Positions 4,694 to 25,065 of a stretch of 64,000 bases of DNA are shown here, piece by piece. The notes under the pieces are model-generated. The model was not told the origin of the DNA and did no database searches. It saw only the letters and a list, made by a program, of their open reading frames with translations. The position numbers and the translations under genes were made by a program. The DNA comes from Acidimicrobiaceae bacterium. GTDB taxonomy: Bacteria; Actinomycetota; Acidimicrobiia; Acidimicrobiales; RAAP-2. Position 1 is the stretch's first letter, and each line of letters begins with the position of its first letter. The DNA is taken from contig PLZF01000015.1 in assembly GCA_003152015.1 (NCBI GenBank), positions 1 through 64,000 of the forward strand. Reading direction: 5' to 3'.

Positions 4694-5031
4694 TCCGGGC
4701 GGGACCGCTTCGATCCTGGGGTCGGACGCCGGCTCCGCCGGAGCTTCGGGGTGAAGCGGGAAGCTGGTTCGGTGTGGCCGGTATGGCCGGTGTGGCGGAT
4801 GGACTGATTCACGAGTACCGACTCGTCGCATGACCTGGACGCACGGATTCTCGACACCCACAGGCATAGCCAACGTCACTTCAGGACGGGTTGACTCTCA
4901 CTCCACTGGCGATTGGGAGTCGGGACACATCTGGGACGCGCGGAACGCATGCATCCGTTTCCGCCTACCCGCGGGCCACGATCGTTCGCCTCTGGCCTGA
5001 CGATCATTCAGAACCGGCGATCAGCCCGCGG
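4694..5031. other. Gap between acyl-CoA ligase and hydrolase; possible weak terminator
   Basis: I see no credible gene. A short hairpin CCGGC-TCC-GCCGG (4729-4741) lies 35 bp after the ligase stop but lacks a T-tract, so terminator function is uncertain. A TGTGGCCGG-type sequence repeats imperfectly near 4770-4797. Confidence 0.3.
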
Positions 5032-5682
5032 TTACGACGCCGCCGGAGGGGATTTCCGTCCACGCTCGGATCGAATGGCCTGATCGAGATTATGGCGCCG
5101 TTCAGCTATCTCCTCTGTCAGAGCATCGGCCCACTCCATGATGGTCTCGGCTGTGCTCTGATCGAAGATCACGCGCAGGTGCCCGACGTTCGGCACCCCG
5201 AGGAATGTATGTGGCCTGTTCGGTCGAGCAGCACTCTTCGGTACCAACCTGTCTTTCGCCGCTGTGACCACCAGGATTGGTGGGCGCTCGCCAGGGATAG
5301 CTGCCACACCTCTCAGATAGGTGCTGTTCGTCCCCATATCCCTCATGACCGGCAGTGGGCCGAACCGTGACAGATAGTGGCCCTGGTGCGGTGTGCCGAT
5401 GGTTACGAGCCCATCGATCGGTGCTCCCAGCGCTGCGGCGTGCTCTGCGACCAGACCTCCCATCGAATGCCCGATCACCACGATGGTGTCGTGGGTCTGA
5501 TCCAGTCGGTCGATGAGCTCGACCAGGCGCTCCGCTGAGGTGGCGAGCGGCCCGAAGACCAATCGCTCGTTGAAGTACTTGGTCCGCCAGCCCTGTTCAC
5601 GGGCGCTACGCCTGATCGGGGTCAGCGGCCATTCGTTGCCGGGAGCACCGAAGCCTCCCACGAAGACGAGAGCCCTACTCAT
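5032..5682 (-). CDS. Alpha/beta hydrolase (PGAP1/lipase-like)
   Basis: 216 residues. The nucleophile elbow is GHSMGG in the strand-helix context TIVVIGHSMGGLVAEHAA. A catalytic Asp candidate sits in AAKDRLVP and a catalytic His in PNVGHLRVIF, in the order expected for an alpha/beta hydrolase. The N-terminal VFVGGFGAPGNEW gives the oxyanion strand. No signal peptide, so cytosolic. The family covers lipases, esterases and amidases; the text VTIGTPHQGH is typical of PGAP1- or triacylglycerol-lipase-like members. Substrate unknown. It stands alone and is followed by a region of strong hairpins. Confidence 0.85.
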   Translation of the reverse strand: MSRALVFVGGFGAPGNEWPLTPIRRSAREQGWRTKYFNERLVFGPLATSAERLVELIDRLDQTHDTIVVIGHSMGGLVAEHAAALGAPIDGLVTIGTPHQGHYLSRFGPLPVMRDMGTNSTYLRGVAAIPGERPPILVVTAAKDRLVPKSAARPNRPHTFLGVPNVGHLRVIFDQSTAETIMEWADALTEEIAERRHNLDQAIRSERGRKSPPAAS

Positions 5683-6007
5683 CGTTCAGCACTCGGAACA
5701 GGAGTGCGGTGTGCTCATCGTTCGAATATTTCACTGCACTGATGTAGATATCACTGCCATGCTCCATTGTCCAGGTGTTCTATCCCGAACCTGTGGATGC
5801 ACCCCCTGATCCGTGCCCGCTGACAGAGCTGGCCGGCCCGTACGGCCCGGCAGAGGATGCGTCAATCAACAGACGCCGGACCGGAGTGCTGGTGCCCTTG
5901 GGGCAAGGCTTGAATTGGTCAGGAGTTGCAACGACCGCTGGAACCCGCCCCATCTGATCTGGTCCCGCTCGGTGGCGTGGGTCGTTTGCTTTGGAGAGGT
6001 GGAATGC

Positions 6008-6070
6008 GATCTGGCCGGCACAGGAGGTGCCGGCCAGATCATCACGTGACCGAGGAGGGGAACCTCCTCG
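6008..6070. terminator. Two adjacent perfect hairpins, probable bidirectional terminator
   Basis: GATCTGGCCGGCAC (6008-6021) pairs perfectly over 14 bp with 6027-6040 around a 5-nt loop. Ten bases on, CGAGGAGG (6051-6058) pairs perfectly over 8 bp with 6063-6070 around GGAA. Both lie just downstream of the gene ending at 6082 on the minus strand. Neither is followed by a T-run, so termination would be of the I-shaped actinobacterial type. The rest of 5683-6081 holds no gene I can support. Confidence 0.55.
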
Positions 6071-6081
6071 TGGAGTTGGCG

Positions 6082-6975
6082 CTATCGCGTCGTCGCGGCC
6101 CCGCTCCGGGATCCCGAGGGGATGCTCGCCGGAGGTCCTGCAGGGGTGCTCGCCGGAGGTCCTGCAGGGGTGCCCGCCGGAGGTCCTGCAGGGGTGCCAC
6201 TGGGAGCGCCGGAGCCGGTGGACCCGTCCGAGGAGCCCGACGTCGTGGGGACTGTCGAGGGTGGGGACACGCTGGCGCAGAACACTTGGATGGTCTCACC
6301 CTTGGCCTGAGCGTCGGCGGTGAGCTGCGGGAAGCTGTCCTGGGCGTTGCTGGAGTTGCTGTTAGTACTAGTGCCCTTGTTTGCAGCGGCCCAGGCGGTG
6401 CACTGCCCGTAGGCATTCGCGCTCGAGGCTGACCCACTGTTGCCATGCCCGCTTGCTTGGCTGTTTGCGTTGCCGGCGCCCAGGCTGGCGTGCGGCGAAG
6501 CGTGGCTGTTTGCGTTGCCGCCTCTGAGGCTGGCGTGCGGCGAAGCGTGGCTGTTCGGGTTCGGGACCGAGATCCCGACATGTGTCAGGCCGCTGGACAC
6601 CACTGATTGGACGGGCGCGGGCAGCGAGCCCGCGGCGGCTACTGCGCCACCGCCACCGAGCACGACCGCGGCGGCTACGGCGGCCACCTTGATCGAGAGT
6701 AGGTTCGTGAGCATCCGTTTTTTCCCTTCGTAGACGTTCTCCGAGGCACCTACAGGTGTCCGAACGACGGCAGCAAAGGCGGCGACCACCTGATCCTCAA
6801 CGGCTCCGCCGCCGGCCGAAGCCGGCGGCTTCGCCGCCTGGATCAGCATGGCCAAGTCCCTCAGTCCCGGAGGGGCGTCGTCTGGGACGACCCTCCCGGC
6901 GAGAAACCTGTCTGCTGTGCTTGTGTCGAATGGCAACCTGTGCATCTCGGTAGCCTCATCGTCTGCGGGGTTCAT
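6082..6975 (-). CDS. Membrane protein paired with ECF sigma factor, low-complexity exported tail
   Basis: 297 residues: an N-terminal cytosolic part (1-90), one membrane segment (about 95-117, Ala/Val/Gly), then a long Ser/Asn/Gly/Pro-rich exterior with two SHASPHASL repeats, a Cys-containing block with a Cys on either side of the SNAQDSFPQLTADAQ segment, and three TPAGPPA repeats at the C-terminus. The start codon overlaps the stop of the sigma gene (ATGA), a layout typical of a sigma factor with its membrane-anchored regulator. An anti-sigma role is therefore likely for the N-terminal part (inference; I see no zinc-binding HxxxCxxC motif). The low-complexity tail may sense or bind something at the surface. 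Confidence 0.75.
   Translation of the reverse strand: MNPADDEATEMHRLPFDTSTADRFLAGRVVPDDAPPGLRDLAMLIQAAKPPASAGGGAVEDQVVAAFAAVVRTPVGASENVYEGKKRMLTNLLSIKVAAVAAAVVLGGGGAVAAAGSLPAPVQSVVSSGLTHVGISVPNPNSHASPHASLRGGNANSHASPHASLGAGNANSQASGHGNSGSASSANAYGQCTAWAAANKGTSTNSNSSNAQDSFPQLTADAQAKGETIQVFCASVSPPSTVPTTSGSSDGSTGSGAPSGTPAGPPAGTPAGPPASTPAGPPASIPSGSRSGAATTR
6124..6195. repeat. 24-bp tandem repeat, 3 copies, in coding sequence
   Basis: Units 6124-6147, 6148-6171 and 6172-6195 differ at one base. They encode the TPAGPPA-type repeats at the C-terminal tail of the membrane protein. The unit length is a multiple of three, so copy-number change would keep the frame. Confidence 0.9.
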
Positions 6976-7589
6976 TGCGTTACAGCTCCTCGTTCCCAGA
7001 TCTTCGCCAGGTGCCGTAGCGCCCGATGTTGCAGGACCCGCACCGACCCGGGGCTGCGCCCCATGATCTTGGCCACCTGTTCGACGCTCAGGTCCGCCAC
7101 TACCCGCAACAGGACGACTTCTGCCTGGTCAGCAGACAGGTCTCGCACGAGCGCCTCGATGGCCTGGTCGGTCGACAACGCCTCGATGGCCTGGTCGTCG
7201 GCCGCAGCTGCCATCGGCGCCTGGTCGGTGAGGGCGATCAGCCGAGGGCGGCGGGCCCGATTCCGATAATGGTCGGCGATGCGCCGACGGGCGATGACGA
7301 ATAGCCACGCCCGGAGTTCGTCGACATCGCCCTCAAAAGTGGCGAACCCTTTGGCGGCAGCCAGCCACGTCTCGGCCACTAGGTCCTCGGCCACATCGGG
7401 AGCATGGCGTCGCACGTAGTGCAGCAGCTTCGGGTGCACCGCCCGGAATATGCACGTAATGGCCCACTCGTCCCCCCTGCGTGCGGCTTGTAGCGCGGCA
7501 TCCAGATCGGCGTATTCCACTGTGACACCATATCGACGCGTCCAACCTCCGACTTGAGCGGCGTACTCACAATCCGGGGGGCGGGTCAT
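6972..7589 (-). CDS. ECF (sigma-70 family) RNA polymerase sigma factor
   Basis: 205 residues. Region 2 is visible as DLVAETWLAAAKGFATFEG followed by LRAWLFVIARRRIADHYR. Region 4 is LSADQAEVVLLRVVADLSVEQVAKIMGRSPGSVRVLQHRALRHL, the DNA-binding HTH. It is cytosolic and directs RNA polymerase to a dedicated promoter set. It forms a two-gene operon with the downstream membrane protein through a 4-bp overlap. The purine-rich GTGGGGGGCG just before the ATG may act as a weak ribosome-binding site. The N-terminal ~25 residues are poorly conserved-looking, so the true start may be further in (a GTG before EYADLDAAL). Confidence 0.9.
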   Translation of the reverse strand: MTRPPDCEYAAQVGGWTRRYGVTVEYADLDAALQAARRGDEWAITCIFRAVHPKLLHYVRRHAPDVAEDLVAETWLAAAKGFATFEGDVDELRAWLFVIARRRIADHYRNRARRPRLIALTDQAPMAAAADDQAIEALSTDQAIEALVRDLSADQAEVVLLRVVADLSVEQVAKIMGRSPGSVRVLQHRALRHLAKIWERGAVTQ

Positions 7590-7609
7590 CGCCCCCCACT
7601 TCGGTTCCG

Positions 7610-8066
7610 CTATCGAAACTGAATCACCCTGGATCCACCGGAGGTGATGTGACCTGGGTTTTGCAGAGTCAGCATGCTGGAATTCATGCCACTGGTTGTT
7701 GGGAGGTGAGGGAGGTGGTTGAGGCCGAATCCGTCTGTCGCTGCGGCTCCTACAGGGCCGTCGGAAGCTTCGTGAACCCGCCTCGCCCCCTCCTCCTGCA
7801 TGAGTTCGGTATGGCAGATGCCAAATGCGGCGCCCGCCTCCTCGAGTAGATGGGCTATCCCCTTGAGGGCCAAGAGATCATCGGGAATCACGTCGTTCGG
7901 CCCATGGAACAGGAGGGCAACCGTCGCCTGGTGCAATGCGATAAGGCTGCCGTGCGCCGGCTCGGCGCCACCATGCAGAGTCGGCGATCGAGCGCACCCG
8001 CTCGGGCACAGAACGACGCGCCAGAACGAAGGCCGTCGCCATCCTGGCCGCAGCCCAGAACGGCAC
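7610..8066 (-). pseudogene. Unrecognised, probably frameshifted gene remnant
   Basis: Two minus-strand frames read like one protein split by a frameshift near 7990: MATAFVLARRSVPERV in one, then a Leu/Ala/His-rich helix-forming segment (LIALHQATVALLFHG) continuing with LLALKGIAHLLEEAGAAFG in the next. Codon use in the second frame looks coding. I do not recognise the family. The surrounding 7590-8407 interval otherwise shows no gene. Confidence 0.25.
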
Positions 8067-8407
8067 CTACGCGTGCGCCCGGCAACTCGTTTCACCGGCC
8101 ACGTCGAATCCGAGGTTCGGGCGCCGGCCGCGACACGCCCGACCCGTCTGATCTGGCGCCAGGAGGTGCTGCTGGTCTTCGTCGTCGACATCGCACCGAA
8201 GCGGTTGTTCTGTGCTCGGCGGCGGCTGATGTCGACCACGGATTCTTTGTGCCTGATTCGTTAGGGAGTATGGCAGGGAGGGACGCGATTGCGTGCCCCG
8301 AGCGTGCCGATCGCGACCGGCAGATGCTTCTACACGTGGCCGGACATTGCCGAAGCCGGTCGGCACACGAGGAGTGCAGGTGACCGGCCGGAGAGGAGGT
8401 GCCGTGG

Positions 8408-8441
8408 TTGACATATGGACGATATATGTTAATTTGTAAAT
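8408..8441 (+). promoter_or_regulatory. Leaderless promoter with palindromic operator for tetR
   Basis: TTGACA (8408-8413) and TAATTT (8430-8435), 16 bp apart, form a promoter whose start point would fall on or next to the ATG at 8442; no Shine-Dalgarno is present. The inverted repeat ACATAT-N7-ATATGT (8411-8429) fills the space between the two elements, the usual place for a TetR autorepression operator. Confidence 0.6.
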
Positions 8442-9017
8442 ATGCGAAGTGGACTTCCAGTGCGAGAACGAATCCTCGACGCCGCGGTGGAGATGGCCTC
8501 TACCCACGGCATCGCACGGCTGTCAGTGGGCGATGTGGCACGCCGGGCAGGGTTATCGCGGCAGACCGTCTACAAGCACTTCTCGTCCAAACAGGTGCTT
8601 GTGGCCGAGACGGTGCGCCGGGAGGCGACCGACATCATCCGCCAGGTGGTCGATGCGTCCGAAGAGTTCAGCGACAACGTTCGTGGATTGAGCGCCGGTA
8701 TTGCCACCGCGCTGCGCCTGACCCGAGTCCACCCGCTCCTCGACCGACTGATCCGTACCGAGCCGGAGTCCCTCCTTCCCTTGCTGACGTCGGCAGACGG
8801 ACCGGTCATCTCGGTGGCCCGCGCCGCGGTGGCCGGGGTCATCGAGGCCCGGTTCCCAGACCAGGCGAGCGACCGTCGTTGGCAGGCCGCCGACGTGATC
8901 GCCCGGTTGCTCGTGAGCTATGCAGCCGGACCACCGGACGAGCCGCCCGAAGTGCTGGCGGCGACGCTCACCGAGTTCCTGACCCAGGGGATGTTGCCAT
9001 CCCTGCTCCCGACCTGA
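8442..9017 (+). CDS. TetR/AcrR-family transcriptional regulator
   Basis: 191 residues. An N-terminal HTH (RERILDAAVEMASTHGIARLSVGDVARRAGLSRQTVYKHFSSK) is followed by a helical ligand-binding domain, the standard TetR layout and length. It is 74 bp upstream of the alkane monooxygenase gene on the same strand, and its own promoter contains a perfect inverted repeat. Autoregulation and control of alkB by an alkane, alcohol or acyl-CoA signal are the simplest reading (inference). The mRNA is probably leaderless. No effector can be predicted from the variable C-terminal domain. Confidence 0.9.
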   Translation: MRSGLPVRERILDAAVEMASTHGIARLSVGDVARRAGLSRQTVYKHFSSKQVLVAETVRREATDIIRQVVDASEEFSDNVRGLSAGIATALRLTRVHPLLDRLIRTEPESLLPLLTSADGPVISVARAAVAGVIEARFPDQASDRRWQAADVIARLLVSYAAGPPDEPPEVLAATLTEFLTQGMLPSLLPT

Positions 9018-9091
9018 CCCAGTCCGAACCGACTGTTTTGGACCAAACCCATGCACGTCGACGCGACGAACTGGCCGAATAGGAGACAACC

Positions 9092-10282
9092 ATGACGACT
9101 GACGGATCTGCGGTAGCCGAGAAACGAACGGTGCCGGTGACGGCGCCCGACGAACGCCCGTGGCGGGACCGAAAGCGCCTGCTCTGGCTCCTCGGCTTGG
9201 CCGTGCCGCTCCTTCCGCTCGGCGGCTGGGAAGGGTTCCGGGCCACCGGCGCACCGGTGTTCTTGTGGATGGGGCCGATCTGGATCCTGGTCGTGATCCC
9301 GCTGCTCGATTGGGTCGTCGGCGAGGACCGCTCCAACGCGCCCGAGTCGGCGATGGCCAAAATCGAGGCCAGCCTCTACTACCGATGGTGCACGTGGCTC
9401 TACCTGCCGCTGCAGTTCGTCGGGTTGGTGTGGGCGACCTGGATCATCTCGACGACCCGCCTGGGCTGGGCCGGTTTCCTCGGTTGGGCATTCACGGTCG
9501 GGGCCGTCGGCGGCATCGGCATAGCCAATGCCCACGAGCTCGGCCACAAGCGGGACGACCTCGAGCGCTGGCTGTCTCGGATCGTGCTGGCGCAGACCGG
9601 CTACGGGCACTTCTACGTGGAGCACAACCGGGGCCACCACTCCAGAGTGGCGACTCCCGAGGACCCGGCGAGCGCCCGCCTCGGCGAATCGTTCTGGGCA
9701 TTCCTGCCCCGAACGGTGTTCGGCGGCCTCCGGTCGGGCTGGGCCCTCGAGAAGGGCCGGCTCGATCGGCATGGTCTGTGCACATGGAGCGTCCGTAACA
9801 AGATCCTGCAGGCCTGGGCCATGTCCGTGGCGCTGTTCGGAGCGCTGATCGGCGCCTTCGGGGTATGCGTGGTGCCGTTCCTCGTGATCCAGGCCGTCTT
9901 CGGGTTCTCGTTGCTCGAGGTGGTGAACTACGTGGAGCACTACGGGCTGCTCCGCCAGAAGGCGGCCAACGGGCGTTACGAACGGTGCCAGGCGTGCCAC
10001 AGCTGGAACTCGAACCACGTCGCCTCGAACGTGTTCCTCTACAACCTGGAGCGCCACTCGGACCACCACGCCAACCCGACCCGCCGCTACCAGACACTGC
10101 GGCACTTCGATGATGCTCCCCAACTGCCCTCGGGGTATGGGCTCATGCTCGGCATGGCGTACATGCCGCCGTTGTGGCGCAAGGTCATGGACAAGCGGGT
10201 GCTCGCCCTCTACGGCGGGGATATCACGAAGGCGAACATCCACCCACCGAAGCGGGCGAAGCTCCTGGCGAAGTACCGATGA
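9092..10282 (+). CDS. alkB: Alkane 1-monooxygenase
   Basis: 396 residues with the diagnostic histidine boxes of the membrane di-iron hydroxylases: HELGHK (148-153), EHNRGHH (177-183), the NYVEHYG alkane-hydroxylase signature (279-285) and LERHSDHHANP (319-329). Multiple membrane segments precede and separate them. Reaction: terminal hydroxylation of medium- to long-chain alkanes to 1-alcohols with O2 and electrons from rubredoxin. GGAG 9-12 nt upstream supports the start. Box 3 has LERH where LQRH is usual. No rubredoxin or rubredoxin reductase is adjacent or fused, so electrons must come from a gene elsewhere. Confidence 0.95.
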   Translation: MTTDGSAVAEKRTVPVTAPDERPWRDRKRLLWLLGLAVPLLPLGGWEGFRATGAPVFLWMGPIWILVVIPLLDWVVGEDRSNAPESAMAKIEASLYYRWCTWLYLPLQFVGLVWATWIISTTRLGWAGFLGWAFTVGAVGGIGIANAHELGHKRDDLERWLSRIVLAQTGYGHFYVEHNRGHHSRVATPEDPASARLGESFWAFLPRTVFGGLRSGWALEKGRLDRHGLCTWSVRNKILQAWAMSVALFGALIGAFGVCVVPFLVIQAVFGFSLLEVVNYVEHYGLLRQKAANGRYERCQACHSWNSNHVASNVFLYNLERHSDHHANPTRRYQTLRHFDDAPQLPSGYGLMLGMAYMPPLWRKVMDKRVLALYGGDITKANIHPPKRAKLLAKYR

Positions 10283-10848
10283 ACTGGTTGGCAGCCGGGG
10301 TTTCGCCCGGAATCCCCGTGAACGTCAGCGGTCACTTGGGGGTCTCCCTGTCCGTTTGGCTCCAGATCGGCATCCTCGTCTTGGCCGGCGCCCTATTCGC
10401 TTTCGCTGGTTCCTACGTCGGGGCGATCATCACCCGCAGGAGCGCTCGGCACGAGGCCGACAGATCCGAGGCGACCACCGAGGCCCGACGGCGGGCGGAT
10501 AAGCACGACGGACAGCAGCGGGCCAGCCGGGCCCTGGCAGCGGAACTCGACCACATCGCGGGTCTCGGCGGATCGTTCCGTGTGCTGGACACATACGTCT
10601 CGCTGCCGCGCCTGGTGCATTTCGGGGTCGTCCCGGACCTGCCGCACCCGATCATGACGGTGGCGTTGGCAGCGTACAAGTCCATCGAGCGCTTCAACGC
10701 GGTCGCCGGCGTCTTCAACGCTCGGATCGACAGTCCTCCATCCGACAATGCGAAGATCGCCATGGCCCTGGACGAACTCGGGGCCGAAGCTGTTGCGTGT
10801 GCCACAGCGGCGAGGGACTCGCTCCAGCACCTGCTGGCCGACACGTGA
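10279..10848 (+). CDS. Single-pass membrane protein of unknown function
   Basis: 189 residues, start overlapping the alkB stop (ATGA), so translationally coupled to alkB. One membrane segment (about 26-51) is followed by a charged, helical, coiled-coil-like stretch rich in Arg/Glu/Ala (52-90) and a helical C-terminal domain. I do not recognise a family. Coupling suggests a role linked to alkane oxidation, for instance an accessory or scaffold at the membrane, but that rests on position only. Confidence 0.65.
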   Translation: MNWLAAGVSPGIPVNVSGHLGVSLSVWLQIGILVLAGALFAFAGSYVGAIITRRSARHEADRSEATTEARRRADKHDGQQRASRALAAELDHIAGLGGSFRVLDTYVSLPRLVHFGVVPDLPHPIMTVALAAYKSIERFNAVAGVFNARIDSPPSDNAKIAMALDELGAEAVACATAARDSLQHLLADT

Positions 10849-11304
10849 GCCGTCTGCCAGCCTGAGGATCGGCCCCCCTGGCAGGCGAGTGGTCGCCGGT
10901 GCGACCGCCATGTTCGCCCACGACGTTCGAGGCTGCACCCCGAGAGAGGGGCTCTCCTTGCCACGACTCGCCCCCCACTCGGTGCCTGCGACCTCCCTCC
11001 GAGCAGTATCGCACTGACACCACCCAGAGGGGCGGAACCCAGAACTGGGTAATCTGTGTCTCTTGAGCATCCCGTCCGGCATCGGAGCGGACCCGTATAT
11101 TTAGCGATCTGGCGCATTGCAGGGAGGACCGAACAACGCGCCAGACGACCGTCTCGTTCTCGTGGCGGCAGCGCAGCCCGCCGTCGAGGGACGCGACTGG
11201 CTAAGATTTGGTGGGTCCGGGAGTGACTTCGCCGAAGAGCCGGCCGTCAGGGTGCAGAGCCGGTCACGCAGGCTACGAGTCGTCCCCGCCTGTCCTCCCG
11301 GGCC
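10849..11304. other. Non-coding stretch containing one end of the IS110 element
   Basis: No credible gene. ACCCAG-AA-CTGGGT (11037-11050) is a perfect small hairpin that could end the alkB transcript. An AT-rich patch lies at 11095-11108. One end of the IS110-family element must fall in this interval, but members of the family lack terminal inverted repeats and I cannot place the boundary. Confidence 0.3.
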
Positions 11305-12327
11305 CTACTTCTGTGCGTCGAGGACCAGGTGGCGATATACGGTGTTGGAGATCTGGCGCTTCAACGACCGGATGGCCTCTCGCTTGGTCTTGCCCTCGGC
11401 CACCTTGCGCTCGAAGTAGGCGCGCCCCTCGGAGTGGGTTTGTCGGATCTGGGAGATGGCCGCCATGTGGATGGCGTGGTTGAGTTGGCGGTTACCCAGA
11501 CGTGACAACCGGTGGGCCACGCGACCTCCCGAGGACACCTCGATGGGTGCGGTGCCGTTGTAGGCGGCGAACTGGTCCCGGCTCGTGAAACGGGAGACGT
11601 CGCCGGTGTAGCCAATGAGCGAGCAGGCGATGACCGCGCCGATGCCGAACACCTCGGTGGCCGAAGTACCCGAGGCCTGGACAGCCAACTTGATGCGTTT
11701 GTGGGACTCGCTCAGCTGATGGTCGAGATGACGGATATCCTCCAAGAGCTCGAGCGCCAACTGGTGGCGGGTGTGCTCAGCGGGAGAGGATCCCTCGAAG
11801 CTCCCGAGCAGTCCATCGGCGTCAGAAGCGTTGAGTTCCTTGGCAATTCCCCCTGCTTCCAAGCCAGCGATCAGGGCGTGGAGCCAGCACACCTGCTTGG
11901 TTCGGAGAGCACCGATGCCCCGATTGCGTTTGGCCAACAGTCGCAACACCTCGGCGTGATCGGCCGCGTAAACGGACCGAAGTCCGGGTGACCGGAGAGC
12001 GGCGATGGCCACCGAGCGGGCATCGTTGGGGTCGTTCTTGTCTGATCGGCCCGTCCCGAGGACCCGCACCCTCGAAGCCAGGGTGGCGGGCACGTCAAGG
12101 ACGTGCTCTCCGGCATCGACGAGTTGTTGGGCCAGGAGGTAGCCGAGTCCACCGGCCGACTCGATGGCCCAGGTCCGCTCTTTGAAAGGTTCTGCCCACG
12201 AGAGCAACTTGTCGGTCTGTTGGCTCGTGGCCCGGACCGTGACGGTAGCGAGCTCGGCTTCGTCACAGCCGATGGCAACCGCAGTATGGGTTGCCTTGTG
12301 GGGATCAATACCGATGATGGTGGTCAT
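11305..12327 (-). CDS. IS110-family transposase (DEDD recombinase)
   Basis: 340 residues. The N-terminal RuvC-like domain shows the DEDD set: Asp8 in GIDPHK, Glu56 in AIESAG, Asp99 and Asp102 in DKNDPNDAR. The C-terminal Tnp20 domain has EVFGIGAVIACSLIGYTGDVSRF followed by APIEVSSGGRVAHRLSRLGNRQLN, holding the catalytic serine candidates. IS110 transposases work as RNA-guided recombinases using a bridge RNA encoded in the element's own non-coding end. AGGAGG 5 nt upstream supports the ATG. The frame is intact, so the copy may be active. It lies next to a tRNA-derived attachment-like site. Confidence 0.95.
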   Translation of the reverse strand: MTTIIGIDPHKATHTAVAIGCDEAELATVTVRATSQQTDKLLSWAEPFKERTWAIESAGGLGYLLAQQLVDAGEHVLDVPATLASRVRVLGTGRSDKNDPNDARSVAIAALRSPGLRSVYAADHAEVLRLLAKRNRGIGALRTKQVCWLHALIAGLEAGGIAKELNASDADGLLGSFEGSSPAEHTRHQLALELLEDIRHLDHQLSESHKRIKLAVQASGTSATEVFGIGAVIACSLIGYTGDVSRFTSRDQFAAYNGTAPIEVSSGGRVAHRLSRLGNRQLNHAIHMAAISQIRQTHSEGRAYFERKVAEGKTKREAIRSLKRQISNTVYRHLVLDAQK

Positions 12328-12540
12328 GAGTACCTCCTGGTTCGTTGGTTAGGAACCGCGAGGGCACTCCTGATTTGGATCCTGGTGCACGTTCCTCTTT
12401 CGAGCCACTCACGGCAAGGTCCCAACGGGGAGCTCTTCGTTCTCAAGCCAGTCGGCAGATGCCGACGGCAGGCACGTCGTGAGCAACCCCATCAGGTCCT
12501 CTAAACCCTACGAACCAACCGCAGCGTCTGCCCCAAGTCT
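12328..12540 (-). ncRNA. Candidate IS110 bridge RNA region (non-coding end upstream of tnp)
   Basis: About 200 bp between the transposase start and the next sequence hold no gene but do hold folding potential: GTCGGC-AGAT-GCCGAC (12451-12466), and complementary TGGTTCGT/ACGAACCA ends at about 12345 and 12508. In the IS110 group the bridge RNA is transcribed from exactly this side of the transposase. The limits and guide loops cannot be set without folding and comparison of element ends. Confidence 0.45.
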
Positions 12541-12821
12541 CAATCAGGAACCTCGGGGGCGCCCATCTGAAGCGGTGACCAGGACGGGCGAGCACAAAAG
12601 CGACTCTTGATAAACGTAGGAGCATCGTTCTGTGTTCCACGACGGGTAGCCCATGACGCTGCGCGGCTGGAAGAGTTCCAGTGGTCGCAACGAAGTGCTG
12701 GCAGAGGACGGATCACCCGTGTAACCGCGAATAGGGGATATTGGACGCCTGGCGACTCCTCTGGTCCCATTCGGCGGCGAGGGCCGACGCCCTTTTGGAT
12801 CGACCTTCGACAGGTCCCGCC

Positions 12822-12937
12822 GTGACTACAACGTGACTACAACTCCCGGCCAAAGCACGCGAAGCGTAGTGAACGGTGGGAACATCGATGCAGGTCAGCA
12901 TCAAATTCGGCAAACGTCCGCCAACGGTGGGAAGCAT
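12822..12937. repeat. Direct repeats next to the tRNA fragment, possible integrase arm sites
   Basis: GTGACTACAAC occurs twice in tandem with no spacer (12822-12832, 12833-12843). A second repeat, AACGGTGGGAA followed by (G)CATC, occurs at 12872-12885 and 12923-12937. Short paired direct repeats beside a tRNA 3' segment are the usual arrangement of integrase arm-type sites. Confidence 0.55.
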
Positions 12938-12943
12938 CAGTAT

Positions 12944-12991
12944 GGACTTTTAATCCCAAGGTGGCGAGATCGAGACTCGCACGGCCCACCA
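12944..12991 (+). pseudogene. 3' half of a tRNA-Lys(UUU) gene, probable attachment-site remnant
   Basis: Spacing is canonical from the anticodon stem to CCA: anticodon loop CTTTTAA (12947-12953, anticodon TTT), variable region AGGTG, T-stem GCGAG/CTCGC (12964-12968/12976-12980) with 7-nt loop ATCGAGA, acceptor strand ACGGCCC (12981-12987) and ACCA (12988-12991). The outer two anticodon-stem pairs fail and no D-arm or 5' acceptor strand lies upstream, so this cannot be a functional tRNA. Such 3' fragments are left where integrative elements insert into tRNA genes. The T-loop starts with A instead of T, a mark of decay. Confidence 0.65.
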
Positions 12992-13271
12992 GCTAAGACC
13001 AGTTCATCGGCCGCTAGTGGCAAGTGGCATTATGGCGCGATCTTAAAATCCAATTCAAAGGCCAACAACGAAGCGGAGACGCTCGGCGTGGCAAACGCCG
13101 TCGACCCGGTCAGCGGTCGACCTGTATGAACGAAGGCCCAGGGGTTGCACCAAGGCGTCGTGCCTTCCTGTTCTGGATTGACAACAAAGGGCGGTCGGTG
13201 GACACGCAATGGCAACGCCACACCTCCGACCTCGAGGGGCCCCTTTTACGCACCCGAACATTGCGTCGGGA

Positions 13272-13817
13272 TCACGCGGCTGCCGGCTTTTCCCAGAGCC
13301 GGTTGGCGAGAGGCATCCTTGCCATCACCGTGAGCCCATCCAGGGTGGTCTCCGCGCCTCCGACCCGGCGCACCAGCGTCAGCATGGGGCGGTTCTCGGC
13401 CAGAATCTCCGCTGTGAAGTCTTCGATGCCGACCGCGGCGGCGCATCCGGCCAACCGTCGCAACATCAGTGCCCCCAGCCCACGTCGCTGCCACCCGTCG
13501 GCCACCCCAAGGGCCATCTCGGCGGTGGCCGGATGGGCTCGGTCACGGACGAACCGCGCCACCGCCACGATGTCGCCCGTCTCGGGCGATACCGCAGTCA
13601 GCGCTTCGTGGTCGTAGTGGTCGACATTGATGAGGTAGTCAACGAGATCCTCGGACAAGCCGGGGGCGCCCGACATGAATCGGCGGTACCGCGATTCCGT
13701 GCTCAACCGCTCCACCGCTGTAACCAGCGCCGGTCCATCTTCGCGGCCAAGCGGGCGGATCAATACCCAGTGTCCGGTTCGCAACCTTACTCGTTCTCCC
13801 TGCGATACCTGAGTCAC
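13272..13817 (-). CDS. GNAT-family N-acetyltransferase
   Basis: About 181 residues. The acetyl-CoA pyrophosphate loop is WQRRGLGALMLRRL (R-x-x-G-x-G/A pattern), preceded by the beta-4 strand AEMALGVAD and followed by NRPMLTLVRRVGG, as in GNAT enzymes. I chose the GTG at 13817 because GGAGG stands 7 nt before it; a GTG at 13835 is also in frame. The family moves an acetyl group from acetyl-CoA to an amine; substrate not predictable. Similar stand-alone proteins accompany protein-acetylation systems, but nothing nearby supports that here. It is one of the few intact genes in a decayed region. Confidence 0.8.
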   Translation of the reverse strand: MTQVSQGERVRLRTGHWVLIRPLGREDGPALVTAVERLSTESRYRRFMSGAPGLSEDLVDYLINVDHYDHEALTAVSPETGDIVAVARFVRDRAHPATAEMALGVADGWQRRGLGALMLRRLAGCAAAVGIEDFTAEILAENRPMLTLVRRVGGAETTLDGLTVMARMPLANRLWEKPAAA

Positions 13818-14193
13818 GTCAACACCTCCGATCACCGAACAACGCCATCAGGACAAGCCCATGATAACCGTTTGCTAACTATTGCAAGCAATGGGGAGAC
13901 TTCACGGAGGAACACCCTGGTCAGAATGCCCGAGCGGGATGTCCTTCGCCTTGCCGACCGGGTGCGGTTGGGGCCGACCTCAGCCAACTTGGGAACCCGA
14001 GAACACGCTCAGGACACCGTCACCCGCTCGACGGCCGATCGGTGGACGGTGCTTCCCCGCCGCCCGTCCGGCGGCTCCGCCGGCCGTCACTCAGGCAGTC
14101 TTCTTGACTGACAGAAAGCGCTTCTGTGGCCACCGCCGGATAGAGCTCCCATGTAGCCTTCCGTCCCGACCTCCACGGTACGACCTGGTGCGG
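13818..14193. other. Non-coding stretch with a GC-rich hairpin
   Basis: No gene seen. CCGGCGG-CT-CCGCCGG (14068-14083) is a perfect 7-bp hairpin and may be a terminator or a repeat. Part of the interval (13850-13900) is unusually AT-rich for this genome, which may reflect foreign or decayed DNA. Confidence 0.3.
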
Positions 14194-14463
14194 TCACACA
14201 TCGACGTCGCCAGTCTCTTTCCGCGACCCAGCGGCTTGACTCGTCATAATCCCTACGTTTTGTCCCTGGTACGGGCCACTTCGCACCACACCACTCACCG
14301 TCGAGTCTCCCGACTCGAGCCACAGCTCCATCCAGTCACAGTCCCAGAGTCCTAGCCGAACCCGACGATCCGGCTCCTCCATATCTGGGTCAAAGGTAGG
14401 TGGGTTCGCGTCAGTCGGGAGTGAATCGAGGGTCACGGTGCAATGACAGGCGAACGAAGACAT
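14194..14463 (-). CDS. Hypothetical protein, 89 residues
   Basis: An acidic, Trp-rich short protein (DMEEPDRRVRLGLWDCDW, then WLESGDSTVSGVV). The composition looks like a real protein rather than a shadow of another frame, and no better frame exists on the other strand, but there is no Shine-Dalgarno and I recognise no family. It could be a leftover of a larger gene, given the broken genes around it. Confidence 0.3.
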   Translation of the reverse strand: MSSFACHCTVTLDSLPTDANPPTFDPDMEEPDRRVRLGLWDCDWMELWLESGDSTVSGVVRSGPYQGQNVGIMTSQAAGSRKETGDVDV

Positions 14464-14537
14464 TATGGGGTGAGGTACTGGCTATCTGGCGAGCGAGGGC
14501 GGCGTTGCCGCGCTCGAGGCGACCTGAGACCACGAGC

Positions 14538-15060
14538 TCAGATCATTGCTGTCGGCCACAACCAACACCCCCACCCAATGGCGACTGCTGAACCACGGTC
14601 CTGAGTGGCTCCCATGCCCACGATGGGTTTGTTGAGGGTCATGGCCCCGGTCGTGCCGTAGAAGGAGCGGCATCCCCCGCAGGAGAAGATCCCAACGTCG
14701 TAGGCAACCAACCAGTAACCAGCGGTCGGCATCGTTGCCGGGGTGGCCGGTGTGGCCGACATTTCGCTGCACGCCGCCGAGTCGCCCAACGCGTTAGTGG
14801 GCTTCACCGTGAAGTAGTAGGTGGGGCCGATGGTGAGACCGGTCACCGTGTAGGAGGTGGCGGTGATGGGGGTGGTGCCCGATGACGTGGTGGCCAACTC
14901 ATTCCCTGTTGAGGTGCCGTCGTAGACGATGTAGCCGGTGATCGTCGAGCCACCGGTGTTGGCCGGCACGCTCCAGGTGAAAATGACCTGGGTGTTGTGA
15001 GCGCCGGAGTAATCCCCTACCTGCACGCCGTAATTTCCTAGTCCGCCGTCGGGACGAGGG
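14538..15060 (-). pseudogene. Fragment of exported FN3 / GYWLVA-repeat protein
   Basis: A fibronectin type III domain is recognisable (VIFTWSVPANTGGSTITGY ... TSYTVTGLTIGPTYYFTV ... NALGDSAACSEMSATP). It is followed by AGYWLVAYDVGIFSCGG ... FYGTTGAMTLNKPIVGMGAT, one copy of the GYWLVASDGGIFxFG / LNxPIVGMAATPDG repeat that I know from large exported acidimicrobial proteins. The repeat should continue, but the frame breaks after GMGAT: a second copy is garbled in two frames. There is no start codon or signal peptide in place at the 5' end either. A truncated remnant of a much larger surface protein. Confidence 0.65.
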
Positions 15061-15142
15061 ATCCCCCCGCCGGGCTCCTTGCACAGATGAACGCTTTGCA
15101 TCCGACAAGGGAGCGAGATCTCATGGCAAGCAGACAATTCGA

Positions 15143-15487
15143 AGGTTCGACGTTGTTGAAGTACTCCAGCATTGGCACGCCGGCCGGCCGAAGCTGATGG
15201 TGGCATCCAGCCTCGGGGTGGACCCGAAGACCGTCCGCAAGTGCATCAAGTCGGCTGAAGAGACCGGGCTCAGCCCGGGTGGCCCGCCGCCGGCACGGGC
15301 CGAGTGAGCTGAGCTCGTCTGCGGCTGGTTCCCCGAGTTGGTCGAGGCCAGGTCTCGGAGCGCCACCTATCCGATGATCGATGTCCATCGAGCCCGCATC
15401 GAGTCAATGACTGCGTCCAACACCGTCTCGACCGTCCATCAGCGGTTGAGGGACGAATACGGTTTGGCCGTCGGCATCACGAGCTTC
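15143..15487 (+). pseudogene. Remnant of IS21-family transposase (IstA N-terminal part)
   Basis: In one frame the sequence reads RFDVVEVLQHWHAGRPKLM ... SSLGVDPKTVRKCIKSAEE ... ELVCGWFPELVEARSRSAT ... STVHQRLRDEYGLAVGITSF, the N-terminal HTH and adjoining region of IstA. A TGA at 15305-15307 interrupts it where the family has Trp (AEWAEL), so it is a nonsense mutant. The catalytic DDE core and istB are missing: after GITSF the sequence switches to an unrelated protein. The first ATG (15123) is out of frame with the rest. Confidence 0.75.
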
Positions 15488-15766
15488 CTGCCCTGGGGTG
15501 GCTCTCAAATTGGCCATGCCGGTATTGCCGCGTTCGCGACCGCACTCGTCGGAACCATCGACTCGGCCTTGACGATTGATGCCCTCTTCGAAACTGACAG
15601 ACAGGTGATTCAGACCGGCCGAATACGAGGTGCGGTACGTGCCAGCGGGGCGACCTTCGACATTCCCGAAGTCCACACTTGGACGATCAGGAACGACAAG
15701 GCCGTTGCCGCCCACTTCGCCTACGAGACTCCGACCTTGGTCGAATCGATTGGACGGACAATTTGA
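15488..15766 (+). pseudogene. C-terminal half of a SnoaL-like (NTF2-fold) protein fused to the IS21 remnant
   Basis: After the IS21 segment the same frame continues to GRIRGAVRASGATFDIPEVH and TWTIRNDKAVAAHFAYETP, the last strands of a SnoaL-like polyketide-cyclase/ketosteroid-isomerase fold. The N-terminal half of that fold is absent. The in-frame junction at about 15488-15540 gives a TTG-started chimera (15338-15766), but it lacks a complete domain from either parent and is unlikely to function. Confidence 0.6.
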
Positions 15767-16062
15767 AGAGCCTTTTCCCGGTGGTCCACAGTCCAATGAT
15801 TGTCGCAGTTGAGCCGGGCGGGCTGGCTTTACGTCGACGTAGGGGCCGTGCAAACCGGTTCTCCAACCGGATCCAGCGTTATCCATGCAGCATCAATTTC
15901 GGCTGGAGCCATTGAACAGAGCGAGTCGATCACGCCGGCATCAACCGTGATTTGCCCGATCGACTCGGCCAAGGGCTTAGAGAGGGAAACGTCTGTACGC
16001 TGCATGCTGGAGCCATCGGCACTCGCTGATGGTCAGGGTTGCTCGCCAGGAGGTCCGTTCCA

Positions 16063-16791
16063 ATGGAAACTCGAGTCGCTGAGGTTGCCGATGGTGTCCA
16101 TCAGCTCACGACCTACGTCTCAGACATGGACTTCAGCTTCAACCAATACCTGATTGCCGGCGACGAGCCGCTGTTGTTCCACACGGGTCCCCGCCATATG
16201 TTCCCGTCCGTTTCCGAGGCCGTGTCGCGGGTTGTGCCAATCGACACGATGCGATGGATCTCCTTCGGCCACGTCGAGGCAGACGAGTGCGGATCCATGA
16301 ATGACTGGCTGGCCGCCGCGCCGCTATCGATCGTCGTACAAGGAATGACCGGCTGCATGGTGTCAATCACGGATCTCGCCGACCGTCCGCCGCGCCCGCT
16401 CGCAGATGGTGACGTGCTCGATATCGGCGGGCATCGAATGCGCTGGCTCGATACGCCACACGTGCCTCATGGTTGGGAAGCCGGCCTCTTCTACGACGAG
16501 ACGACTCGGACACTGTTCTGCGGCGATCTCTTCACCCAGACCGGCGCCTACCCAGCCACCACAACCGACGACATCATGGGCCCGGCAATCGCGGGCGAGG
16601 ATCTCTTTCAAGCGTCATCGCTCGCGCCGGCCAGCGGCGCCACTGTCCGACGACTGGCAGACCTTGGCATCGACACCTTGGCACTCATGCACGGTCCCAC
16701 GTACACCGGCGACTGCCGGGGAGCACTGCTTGATCTGGCTGACGACTTCGACAAGCGAATTGCCGGTGCCCTCAACAGTTCGCCCAGCTGA
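16063..16791 (+). CDS. MBL-fold protein of the oxygen-binding di-iron (ODP) type
   Basis: 242 residues. The metal-binding set follows the flavodiiron/ODP pattern: H-x-E-x-D (His70, Glu72, Asp74 in GHVEADECG), His133/His136 in DTPHVPHGWEAG, Asp155 in CGDLFTQ and a late His in LMHGPTYTGD. This is the di-iron version of the metallo-beta-lactamase fold, used by flavodiiron oxygen/NO reductases and the oxygen sensor ODP of chemotaxis. No flavodoxin domain is attached. AGGAGG about 9 nt upstream supports the ATG. Possible role: oxygen or NO sensing or scavenging in the cytosol; no electron partner lies nearby. Confidence 0.8.
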   Translation: METRVAEVADGVHQLTTYVSDMDFSFNQYLIAGDEPLLFHTGPRHMFPSVSEAVSRVVPIDTMRWISFGHVEADECGSMNDWLAAAPLSIVVQGMTGCMVSITDLADRPPRPLADGDVLDIGGHRMRWLDTPHVPHGWEAGLFYDETTRTLFCGDLFTQTGAYPATTTDDIMGPAIAGEDLFQASSLAPASGATVRRLADLGIDTLALMHGPTYTGDCRGALLDLADDFDKRIAGALNSSPS

Positions 16792-16945
16792 TTCTTAGCG
16801 ACGGGGTTCACCTGACACGGTTCTCGAGAATCCCCATGGGCAAAGCCTGCTTAACAGGTAACCCTTGAGATAGCTCCGACCTGGACACGTTGCGTCGTCC
16901 CTGTCTTGAGCACAGCCTTCGTCGATCCCAATGACCTACCGAGGA

Positions 16946-17776
16946 TCAGAGCCCGGTTACCAGCCGCGTGATGCGATCCCTCAGTTCGGTGGGTATCAGG
17001 GGTTGGGTGGCCGCTATGGCGTGGGCATCGCGGCCGACCAGGTAGCGGGCTCGCGGCGAGCCGATGGTGAAGGCCTTTCCGATCACCTTGGCTACGCCTT
17101 CCGGCTCACCCATGAAACCGGTAAACGACTTGAGCAGAGATTGGATCCGGTGGTACCCGGCCTCGTAGTTCGACCCGGGATGGTGGGAGATGTCTTTCCC
17201 AAGCTGCTCCCAGATCCCAGTTTTAAAGCCACCTGGCTCTACCAACACCACCTTGATGCCGTCACGGGCGACTTCGAGGCGCAAGGCATCGGACGCGGCC
17301 TCGAGAGCGTGCTTGCAGGCTTGGTACCACCCACTAAACGGAGTGGTAATCAGTCCGTAGATGGACGAGACGTTCACGATTCGACCCTGGCCTGCCGCAC
17401 GCATATGGGGCAACGCCAACCGCGACAGCCGCATGGGTGCTATCACCATCGTCTCCAGTTGATGGCGCGCCTCCTCGTCGGTGACGTCTTCAATCGCGCC
17501 GACTCCCGAGAACCCGGCGTTGTTAACCACGGCCCATGGGCGTAACTCGGAGATGACGGCGGCGCAACGCACAGCATCCGTAACGTCCAGCAGCACTGTG
17601 TCAACCGTGACTCCTGCGTTCGCTGCGGCTTGAGCTACCTCCACGGCCTTGGCCTCCGAGCGGACCGAGCCAACCGAGTGGAATCCGAGCGCGGCAAGAT
17701 GCACCACGGTTGCCAGGCCGATACCGGAGTTGGCTCCCGTTGTGAGCACCGTCCGCTCGCTACGATCCATCGTCAT
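16946..17776 (-). CDS. Short-chain dehydrogenase/reductase (SDR)
   Basis: 276 residues of classical SDR: TGANSGIG cofactor loop near the N-terminus, NNAG, catalytic Ser in VNVSSIYG, and YQACK (Tyr-x3-Lys). No basic residue marks NADP specificity clearly. The C-terminal ~70 residues are longer than in minimal SDRs and resemble members that act on retinol- or steroid-like alcohols (inference). It is intact and surrounded by pseudogenes. The substrate is unknown. Confidence 0.88.
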   Translation of the reverse strand: MTMDRSERTVLTTGANSGIGLATVVHLAALGFHSVGSVRSEAKAVEVAQAAANAGVTVDTVLLDVTDAVRCAAVISELRPWAVVNNAGFSGVGAIEDVTDEEARHQLETMVIAPMRLSRLALPHMRAAGQGRIVNVSSIYGLITTPFSGWYQACKHALEAASDALRLEVARDGIKVVLVEPGGFKTGIWEQLGKDISHHPGSNYEAGYHRIQSLLKSFTGFMGEPEGVAKVIGKAFTIGSPRARYLVGRDAHAIAATQPLIPTELRDRITRLVTGL

Positions 17777-17861
17777 TTGACTCTTCTCATCGAAGGTTGG
17801 CTGATGCGGTGTACTCGGTCATGCCGTTCGATCCAAAGACCCGCACTCGGCGCCGGTCCCG

Positions 17862-18047
17862 CTATCGCCATGCCAATCGCCGGCCTTTCCCGAGCACAAA
17901 ACTCACCACCCAGGCAAGGAAGAACACGACCGCGACGATCCACAGAATGTGAAGGGCAAAGGTCGCCCCAGCAGAGATCAATACGAGCAGTAGCAAAATC
18001 AGAATTAGTCCCACACTGCGACCCTTCCCCCGCTTTGGGAGCTTCAA
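17862..18047 (-). CDS. Small hydrophobic membrane protein
   Basis: 61 residues: a basic N-terminus (MKLPKRGKGRS) then two membrane segments (VGLILILLLLVLISAGATFA and LHILWIVAVVFFLAWVVSFVL) ending in basic residues. The pattern with FALHILW matches a widespread family of short actinobacterial hydrophobic proteins of unknown function. The reading frame is clean in a GC-rich background. Role unknown; often considered stress- or envelope-linked, which I cannot verify here. Confidence 0.7.
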   Translation of the reverse strand: MKLPKRGKGRSVGLILILLLLVLISAGATFALHILWIVAVVFFLAWVVSFVLGKGRRLAWR

Positions 18048-18126
18048 ACCAGGCCAGAGGTGGCAGGACCGTGACAGGCAAACTAGGCACCAAGGCCTGT
18101 CTTACCAATGCCCGGTTGGCGTACCA

Positions 18127-18331
18127 CTAGTCCCGACCTTGCCCCACGAAGATCGGCGGTCGTCGGTCGTCGGTCGCCCCAGGGCAGCGCTCGTTCGAGC
18201 TGCGCCGCCACCCGGAAGAGGATGTCCTCGCGCCCGCAGGGAGCGACGATCTGCACTCCGATCGGGAGTCCGCTGGTGCTGTGACCGAGAGGGAGGCTGA
18301 TCGCCGGCCGGCCACCAACGCCGTGTCACCC
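18127..18331 (-). pseudogene. C-terminal remnant of an amidase-signature enzyme
   Basis: One frame reads GGRPAISLPLGHSTSGLPIG then VQIVAPCGREDILFRVAAQLE, the conserved C-terminal end of amidase-signature family hydrolases (P-A-x-S-x-P-x-G and G-L-P-x-G-x-Q). Upstream the frame is lost at once, and the catalytic Ser-cisSer-Lys region is missing. Only the last ~65 codons survive. Confidence 0.6.
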
Positions 18332-18344
18332 TGAAGACCAGGGT

Positions 18345-18605
18345 TCAGAACTTGGCGCCCCGACACCATACGAAATATCCGAGCAGCATGATCGCAGCGA
18401 GGCCACCGACATATATCTCTACTCCACGGACCAGGCCGAGGTCTCGGTACCCGGCTGCGGCAAACAGCAGGGCCGCAATGATCCCAACTAGGAAGCCGGG
18501 CCTTCGGCACGTGGACCGTAGATAGGCAAAGAAGCTTCGATTCTCGCCTTCGTATTGCCACTTCGTGCCAGAGAGCAAGGATGCGTATTTTCGCTTCACG
18601 AGCAA
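18345..18605 (-). CDS. Hypothetical two-span membrane protein
   Basis: 86 residues. A polar N-terminus (MLVKRKYASLLSGTKWQYEG) is followed by two membrane segments (GFLVGIIAALLFAAAGY and IYVGGLAAIMLLGYFVW). Codon use is less GC-biased than the neighbours. It starts 10 bp after the P450 remnant ends. No family recognised. It could be a real small membrane protein or part of the decayed neighbourhood. Confidence 0.45.
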   Translation of the reverse strand: MLVKRKYASLLSGTKWQYEGENRSFFAYLRSTCRRPGFLVGIIAALLFAAAGYRDLGLVRGVEIYVGGLAAIMLLGYFVWCRGAKF

Positions 18606-18614
18606 CCGCCTGCT

Positions 18615-19797
18615 TCAGGTCCCGAAATCCAGCGGTAGTACCCGCGGGCCGCGGACCTGTCCGACCGACCACATCACGGCTTCGGCGTCGGCCAGGGTGG
18701 AGTCGGGAATGCGATCGAGGAATCGCCGCACCGCGGTGTCAAGCTCCATCCGAGCCAGATTTGAACCGAGACACCGGTGGATGCCAACGCCAATCGCGAA
18801 GTGCCGATTGAGGGCGCGATCGAGGATGACCTCGTCAGGATGATCGAAGGCATCCGGATCCCGATTGGCGGCGGGGAACGGAAGGAGGAGCGGATCGCCG
18901 GCCTTCATGAGGCAACCGCCCAGTTCGGTGTCCTGGGTCACCTCTCGCGCCATGGTGACCGGCGAAAAGGCCCGGAGAAACTCCTTAATGGCGGTCGGCC
19001 ACAGGTCCGGCTCGTCACGCAGGCGCTTCCGCTGCTCGGGATGACTGGCGAGATGCCACAGGGTCGCCCCGATGGCGCTCCACATGGTGTCGATACCAGC
19101 CACCAACAGAAGCAGGCACCCCCCGAAGATCTCGGGATCGGTTAACGGGCGACCTTCGAACTCGGCTCCCAATAAAAAGGTCACGATGTCGTCACTGGGC
19201 TCCACCCGTCGACGCTCGACGTGCTCCTGTAAGTACCGGAGAAGTCGAGAAGGGTGGCGATGGCAACATTGACGTCGGTAGGGGCCACTTCGAGCATGTC
19301 GTGCACCCAGACCCGGAATCGATCCCCGTCGTCAGGGGGGATGCCGAGCACGGTGGCGATCACCTGCACCGGGATGTGCTGGGCATAGTCGCGTGCACCG
19401 TCGCAGCCGGCGGCGCCCGCGAATCAGTCGATGAGCCGGTCGGCGAGTTGCTCCACGAACGGTTCCAACTGCTTGATCCTGCCCGGGGAGAAGAACGGCA
19501 ACAGCATCCGGCGGAAGGCGGTGTGGTACGGCGGATCCGACGAGATAGAGGGAACTTCGAGACCGAAGTCGCTCATGGCCCCAACTCGGCCACCACCGGA
19601 CTGCGAGACGAGAATGTCCCGGTGTCACGGGCACTCGCCTCGATGTCCTCGTAACGGGTTGGGACCCACATGCCCCGGAACTTTTCGGAACGGGCGACCG
19701 GGCAGGCCGGGCGCAGATGGCGCCAGATAGAAATGGGGTCGGCGGCGTACTCGGGATCGAAGTGATTGGACTCTTGGGTCCAGTCGACAACCGTCAT
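18615..19797 (-). pseudogene. Cytochrome P450, inactivated by two frameshifts and a stop
   Basis: Read through its breaks this is a complete bacterial P450 of about 390 codons: N-terminus VDWTQESNHFDPEYAADP, I-helix AGIDT (oxygen-binding Thr), the ExxR of helix K (EFLR) and the heme loop FAIGVGIHRCLG. The frame is lost near 19576, stopped by TGA at 19424-19426, and shifted again near 19235; the last ~196 codons are open. Active-site residues are still intact, so decay is recent, or there are sequencing errors. No ferredoxin is nearby. Confidence 0.8.
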
Positions 19798-19989
19798 CCG
19801 GTTTCTGCTCCGCGGTTCGGTTCTCCGCCACAATGGCACGATCCACCGCTGCCTCACAATGCCAGTCGACGGGTTCCGGACCATCACGACACCTGAGCGA
19901 TTCCGAGTCGACCGACTCGTCTCCACAACGCGACATCTGCCGGGGCTATGCCAGACATCGCCCGTCACATCGATACAGGGGGATTCGAG

Positions 19990-20085
19990 ATGTCGCATGT
20001 TGCTCGTAGGCGGTTTTCCGTGGTGGTTACTGCCGCGCTCTGCATGGCGGCGGCCGCATGCACCGGGTGTTCGTGCACTGCGTGA
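19990..20085 (+). pseudogene. Orphan lipoprotein signal peptide
   Basis: A 31-codon frame starts MSHVARRRFSVVV and runs into a hydrophobic segment ending MAAAAC, which looks like a complete type II (lipobox) signal peptide. It then stops eight residues later instead of leading into a mature domain. The body of the lipoprotein is missing; the frame collides with the phosphatase remnant. Confidence 0.45.
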
Positions 20086-20216
20086 TGTGCGAGAGCCGCA
20101 CACCGGCGGTGGCGGTGACATGGCTGCAGCGGCACCACCGGCTCGATCTCACTGCGGCCAAGGACCAGGTGCGGGCGACCATGGCGTGGGCCCGGATGGG
20201 CCTGGTCGGTGCCTGA
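20028..20216 (+). pseudogene. C-terminal remnant of a dual-specificity (Cys) phosphatase
   Basis: The frame reads HRVFVHCVMCESRTPAVAV then WLQRHHRLDLTAAKDQVRATM. HC-x5-R-T is the phosphate-binding P-loop of dual-specificity protein phosphatases, followed by the usual AxxYLxxHxxxxLxxAxxxVR helix pair. The N-terminal half with the general-acid Asp is missing. An ATG at 20058 gives a 52-residue product that could not be active alone. The fragment starts in the middle of the orphan lipoprotein signal peptide, in another frame, which marks a recombination junction. Confidence 0.5.
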
Positions 20217-20257
20217 CGCTGCTCTGGTCCGGAGAACCCGTAGAAGAAGAGGGGCCA

Positions 20258-20305
20258 CCCGGCTGACCGGCCGCCCGGCTGACCGGTCGCCCGGCTGACC
20301 GGTCG
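20258..20305. repeat. 16-bp tandem repeat, 3 copies
   Basis: CCCGGCTGACCGG(C/T)CG is repeated at 20258-20273, 20274-20289 and 20290-20305, intergenic, just upstream of the dehydrogenase gene. It contains a TGACCGG core and may be a recombination or slippage product. Confidence 0.85.
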
Positions 20306-20374
20306 CGCCTAGCCTTGGGACTCGTGTCAGGCTTCGCGTCGCCATCCGTGTCACCGTCGCCACGCCCCGACACT

Positions 20375-21855: not shown

Positions 21856-21876
21856 GCGGTTCCCCCAACCGGGTTC

Positions 21877-21911
21877 CGGCCTAGCTCAGTTCGGCCTAGC
21901 TCAGTTCGGCC
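21877..21911. repeat. 15-bp tandem repeat carrying the threonine-aldolase stop codon
   Basis: CGGCCTAGCTCAGTT occurs at 21877-21891 and 21892-21906 plus 5 bp. Each unit contains the CTA (TAG on the minus strand) that ends the aldolase, so the gene has two consecutive in-frame stops with a repeated AELS coding unit. Confidence 0.85.
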
Positions 21912-24552: not shown

Positions 24553-24594
24553 GCCGGCACTGCACAACGCCGGGCCGCGTCGGCCAGCTCTGAC

Positions 24595-24974: not shown

Positions 24975-25065
24975 TCCTCATGTAATGGAAATTCCAGAGA
25001 AAGCCAAAACCCACGCTACGAGTGGGCTCCCCGTCATGAACATCCACACGGAGGTCACCCCGACA

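Follow-up and report, generated by a model that had tools for sequence, protein, structure and literature searches.

A displaced tRNA-Lys(UUU) 3' part joined to a conserved arm: the probable far end of a decayed integrative element

Results

The tRNA remnant

The window (the whole stretch of DNA analysed, 64,000 nucleotides, positions 1-64000 of contig C37 in a draft genome of 114 contigs) holds half of a tRNA-Lys(UUU) gene joined to a conserved arm. With a probability of about 0.93, positions 12821-12991 are the attR, i.e., the P arm plus the core, of a decayed integrative element which entered tRNA-Lys(UUU) by site-specific recombination at the anticodon stem-loop. The remnant is a well-preserved far-end scar, and the sister sites in relatives point to the integrase family. 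The features are collected in Table 1.

Table 1. Features of the attachment site, its surroundings and the related arm loci
Feature	Location	Strand	Remarks
Candidate attR core: tRNA-Lys(UUU) 3' part, tRNA positions 29-76, anticodon stem-loop to CCA	12944..12991	+	48/48 identity to the intact gene at C8:15448-15523
P arm (predicted element end) adjoining the tRNA core	12821..12943	+	kept in 9 loci, 6 of which have a tRNA 3' half behind it
11-bp tandem repeat GTGACTACAAC x2, putative arm-type integrase-binding site	12822..12843	+	exact repeat
AACGGTGGGAA, first copy of the second pair within the arm	12872..12882	+	
AACGGTGGGAA, second copy	12923..12933	+	core 10 bases further on
Right flank (B' side) of attR	12992..19842	.	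collinear sequence absent from G002 and from the tRNA-Lys contig of G001
Segment on the left side of attR, missing from the corresponding place in G002	5868..12943	.	flanks match G002:C129, nothing between
IS110-family insertion sequence	11165..12562	-	transposase ORF 11305-12327; Pfam PF01548/PF02371, NCBIfam NF033542
alkB-like fatty-acid-desaturase-family gene, possible cargo	9092..10282	+	PF00487, E 6.6e-34
Arm + tRNA-Lys(UUU) 3' half	L160		isolate palsa_749
Arm + tRNA-Leu(CAA) 3' half	L113; also G002:C96		Chersky.15_91 (L113)
Arm + tRNA-Arg(UCU) 3' half	G005:C81 = L115		palsa_457
Arm + tRNA-Thr(CGU) 3' half	L132		Chersky.15_37
Arm copies without tRNA core	C8:12610-12494; C8 from 11605 downward; G005:C8		

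The intact tRNA-Lys(UUU) gene, which the original prediction had proposed to locate, was found on contig C8 and typed by ARAGORN, and the remnant agrees with it without a single mismatch. The match within the genome has an E-value of 9.6e-19 and is therefore not due to chance; an exact 13-mer around the anticodon occurs at only two places in the genome, the remnant and the intact gene. To the left of 12944, the agreement with the tRNA falls to chance level (5/28 bases), i.e., the remnant has no 5' half. Thus, the predicted tRNA-Lys(UUU) 3' part reaching CCA and missing its 5' half was correct, with one adjustment: the identity begins not in the anticodon loop but at GGA, the final three bases on the 5' side of the anticodon stem. 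ARAGORN and Rfam called no tRNA on the remnant, as expected for only half of a tRNA gene, and for the same reason the tRNAscan/Infernal-type covariance-model search suggested earlier could not speak against the tRNA-Lys reading. Similar flanks also surround a shorter tRNA-Lys relic (positions 47-76) at L043 (C35) 8199-8228, L081 4904-4933 and L082 4057-4085; its presence in three genomes of the genus marks it as an old inherited scar.

The arm and its repeats

Both the perfect 11-bp tandem and the second repeat pair predicted beside the remnant are present, the former as adjoining copies of GTGACTACAAC at 12822-12832 and 12833-12843, the latter as the two copies of AACGGTGGGAA. In related (Acidimicrobiales-type) metagenome genomes, the 123 bases to the left of the remnant recur at five further loci, where they run each time into a tRNA 3' half; the breakpoint lay in the anticodon stem across all the tRNA-Lys, -Leu, -Arg and -Thr halves (the isotypes of the halves were read from their anticodon loops, those of intact genes were typed by ARAGORN). 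A conserved P arm passing into a tRNA 3' half within the anticodon stem is what unites the GYGACTACAA-arm tyrosine integrase elements, a grouping made here, and the window feature has it. When all nine arms were aligned, the mean column identity was 62%, and the blocks that are kept were GYGACTACAACTCC, GGGAA and TGRRA. The same repeats as GTGACTACAAC lie between the tRNA and the integrase gene at the attL loci L161, L127 and G002:C96. Judged from its sequence, the conserved 123-base stretch with its two GTGACTACAAC copies and the AACGGTGGGAA pair would be an arm of the integrase-binding type. An ORF crosses the arm, and a reading of the arm as the 3' end of a coding gene was considered; it was dropped because the arm is kept in differing reading contexts and before several tRNAs.

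Sister elements and integrases in relatives

At L161, GTGACTACAACGTGACTACAA comes immediately after an intact tRNA-Leu(CAA), and an integrase (MKGTKTEIRPG...) begins behind it; on G005:C74 (= L127), GCGACTACAAAACGACTACA and then an integrase stand behind an intact tRNA-Lys. Profile matches place integrases of this type among the tyrosine recombinases/phage integrases; the two are 62% identical over 401 residues, with differing tRNA targets. Both ends of a sister element were found on a single contig from the same genus, G002:C96, where 3,963 bp (~4 kb) in tRNA-Leu are bounded by 55-bp repeats: behind the intact tRNA-Leu (7887-7802) stand CTGACTACAAACTGACTAC repeats and a disrupted integrase of this type, and 4 kb further come the arm, the tRNA-Leu 3' half (3839-3785) and then fabD. 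The exact empty site exists in G000:C93 and G001:C114, where tRNA-Leu stands directly before fabD, with flanks 91-96% identical and overlapping exactly in the 55-bp tRNA 3' part. This element and its empty sites identify the window feature as an attR-type end. The original prediction, the distal end of an element inserted into tRNA-Lys, is thus strengthened by the arm fused to several tRNA halves and by attL sites with an integrase at tRNA-Lys and tRNA-Leu in relatives.

Among the integrase loci retrieved from the same genome, none carried GYGACTACA pairs, the only such pair belonging to a core-less arm on C8. A related-locus search with the L161 integrase gave no hit among viral contigs, although a pattern scan of the same viral collection yielded L223, with an integrase 61-73% identical. 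A tyrosine integrase gene adjoining tRNA-Ser(GCT) lies just past the right edge of the window (L181 6678-8017, C37:70678-72017).

Position of the intact gene and the segments around the remnant

The contig G002:C129 is collinear with C8 from 28531 to 15874, followed by tRNA-Lys and then by window positions 1-4704 and 4863-5867 (the latter at G002:C129:47677-46674). Beyond window position 5867, it carries 27.8 kb of other sequence before window positions 19843-34506 and 37002-41253 resume from G002:C129:18903 downward. On G001:C176, tRNA-Lys is followed in the same order by window positions 1-4864. Given this collinearity in both relatives, the window follows C8, the two contigs being joined via synteny and not by assembly, with a gap of ~0.3 kb by G001 coordinates. 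The intact tRNA-Lys is placed in this way about 28.7 kb to the left of the remnant and on the same strand, or ~34 kb if the skip of 5.2 kb of G001 sequence in the last 40 bases of C8, either a deletion or an assembly fault, is the latter. The predicted order, with the element to the left of the remnant and the intact tRNA further left outside the window, agrees with this arrangement.

The original prediction also placed the alkB region and the IS110 copy inside or at the edge of an island. Both lie within the segment absent at the same place in G002 and therefore in a variable zone (5868-12943), but the left end of the element was not found, and their membership of it is no more than possible; this part of the prediction is only partly borne out. 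Homologues of both occur elsewhere in G002: the alkB-like gene has 79% DNA identity to G002:C72, and the IS110 copy is 86% identical over its span to G002:C103:617-2014. Most likely, judging by the comparison with G002, this segment is part of the element or consists of later insertions into it. Window positions 1-5867 are shared at the same locus by G001 and G002, which lack the remnant, so the element need not include them; this stretch may be older than the element, or G001 and G002 may have lost the remnant. The base composition of the zone (58.8-66%) is undistinctive. A ~100-bp dispersed repeat at 7978-8081 has many copies, 77-93% identical, in G001 and G002 and one on C8.

No PF00589 match and no left arm of the GYGACTACAA type were found in window positions 1-12943 or on C8. 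The integrase sought beside the intact tRNA-Lys was found there only as an N-terminal stub, and of another type. To the right, the sequence behind the remnant was not found directly after an intact tRNA-Lys in any of the 20-odd relatives, so these yielded no empty site for the window element; the best was a weak match in G024, whereas the empty sites were exact for the tRNA-Leu sister element and the C8 island described below. Both this result and the missing integrase and left arm count against the attR reading. A CCAGKTCA-like motif was considered as proof of the right flank and discarded because it also stands behind other tRNAs. Two further repeats were observed on this side of the window: a ~110-bp dispersed repeat at 14605-14720, overlapping an fn3-like ORF and present in many copies in all five relatives searched, and adjacent 1.8-kb stretches at 54566-56340 and 56596-58411, whose 73% identity represents a tandem gene duplication.

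A second island at tRNA-Lys and alternative readings

Another tRNA-Lys 3' part, 42/43 identical to the gene, lies at C8:1066-1108. With C8:1109-15450 taken out, the flanks meet with a 43-base overlap and are 97% identical to the G001 site, which is uninterrupted. The island so delimited (C8:1066-15450, ~14.4 kb), which by synteny stands between the intact gene and the window remnant, ends with CCCAACA/CCCAACAATT repeats. On G008:C103, arms of this type bound a complete 8.2-kb element that sits in tRNA-Lys and encodes an intact 396-residue integrase, of whose type C8 retains the first 20-odd codons. Two integrases of the same genome with CCCAACAATT-kind arms (C31 at tRNA-Ile and C18 at tRNA-Ala) are 56% identical to that of G008. 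At least two integrase types, each with an arm repeat of its own, have thus used tRNA-Lys, and the tRNA-Lys zone is more complex than one island. The C8 island also carries an AbiEi/AbiEii toxin-antitoxin pair (L041 (C8) 9518-11121; PF09407, PF08843).

The presence of two displaced fragments raises the question of whether the window remnant is the end of this same island, with the C8 remnant as a later duplication. Both are in tRNA-Lys, on the same side and strand, and the C8 island holds the two core-less GTGACTACAAC arms listed in Table 1. However, the ends of the C8 island carry CCCAACA/CCCAACAATT arms and the stub of a type of integrase only 32-34% identical to that of the GTGACTACAAC arms, and the island is closed exactly by its own attL/attR pair and the empty site in G001, which makes a single island very unlikely. 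Even slightly less credit is due to a tRNA-Lys pseudogene produced by segmental duplication or truncation with no integration involved. The remnant is indeed far from the intact gene, with no integrase adjoining, and older, shorter tRNA-Lys relics (47-76) exist elsewhere, e.g., at C35:46198; yet the 123-base arm meets five other 3' halves at the very same tRNA position, and since these belong to four isotypes, duplication of tRNA-Lys would not account for the arm.

Discussion

For the attR of a decayed element, the following course of events would account for the present arrangement. A tyrosine integrase of the KGTKTEIRPG type would have bound the tandem GYGACTACAA arm sites on the attP of the element, whose own tRNA-Lys 3' half would then have recombined with the chromosomal tRNA-Lys. 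In this way, the tRNA-Lys gene would have been restored at the left end of the element and the original 3' half displaced to its right end, now at 12944-12991. The 14.4-kb island on C8 may have arisen later, when a second element with CCCAACAATT-type arms and the other type of integrase inserted into this tRNA-Lys; deletions and the insertion of IS110 would then have eroded the older element, whose integrase was presumably lost.

Comparison of the relatives suggests that such integrases may change their tRNA target while keeping their arms. Probably, one integrase lineage maintains the ~120-bp arm and swaps only the tRNA half that it carries, having reached at least four tRNA genes (Lys, Leu, Arg and Thr), always at the anticodon stem-loop. 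If this is true, the arm repeat is a label by which orphan attachment scars, such as the present one, can be assigned to an integrase type and tied to its lineage. Moreover, a zone of foreign DNA beside tRNA-Lys ends at the remnant, in a genome for which no described mobile elements were found. Islands in tRNA genes, an ordinary route of gaining foreign DNA, are already textbook knowledge; the individual element is new.

The islands in tRNA genes collected by Islander are marked by a displaced 3' tDNA fragment and a restored gene, attachment class A being anticodon-centred (PMC4383910), and tRNA fragments left by such integration are common (PMC9897764). The window element resembles class A in its displaced 3' tDNA fragment, which has the same orientation as the restored tRNA and lies downstream of it, with a crossover in the anticodon stem-loop. 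As in Islander, the fragment is identical to the intact tDNA of the same genome up to the tRNA 3' end, and its place downstream, in the same orientation, on the same replicon and within 2-200 kb is given by synteny rather than by direct assembly. A tyrosine integrase, as in Islander islands, is present in the intact relatives. Unlike those islands, the window element is without integrase and left end, and its tRNA and fragment are on separate draft contigs; with the integrase gone, Islander's filter for an integrase within the island would reject it.

Tandem arm-type sites are a feature of the lambda/L5-like attP sites of tyrosine integrases. The elements described here share with them short tandem direct repeats on both arms flanking the core, next to the integrase gene at attL. 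Unlike in lambda and L5, the repeat, a putative binding site by its sequence, is GYGACTACAAC. Many IMG/VR proviral contigs have a similar repeat, GTGACTACAAAGTGACTACA, after a tRNA 3' half; in L212-L244, it directly follows the 3' half of a tRNA with a CAT anticodon and is the same arm repeat in unrelated proviruses.
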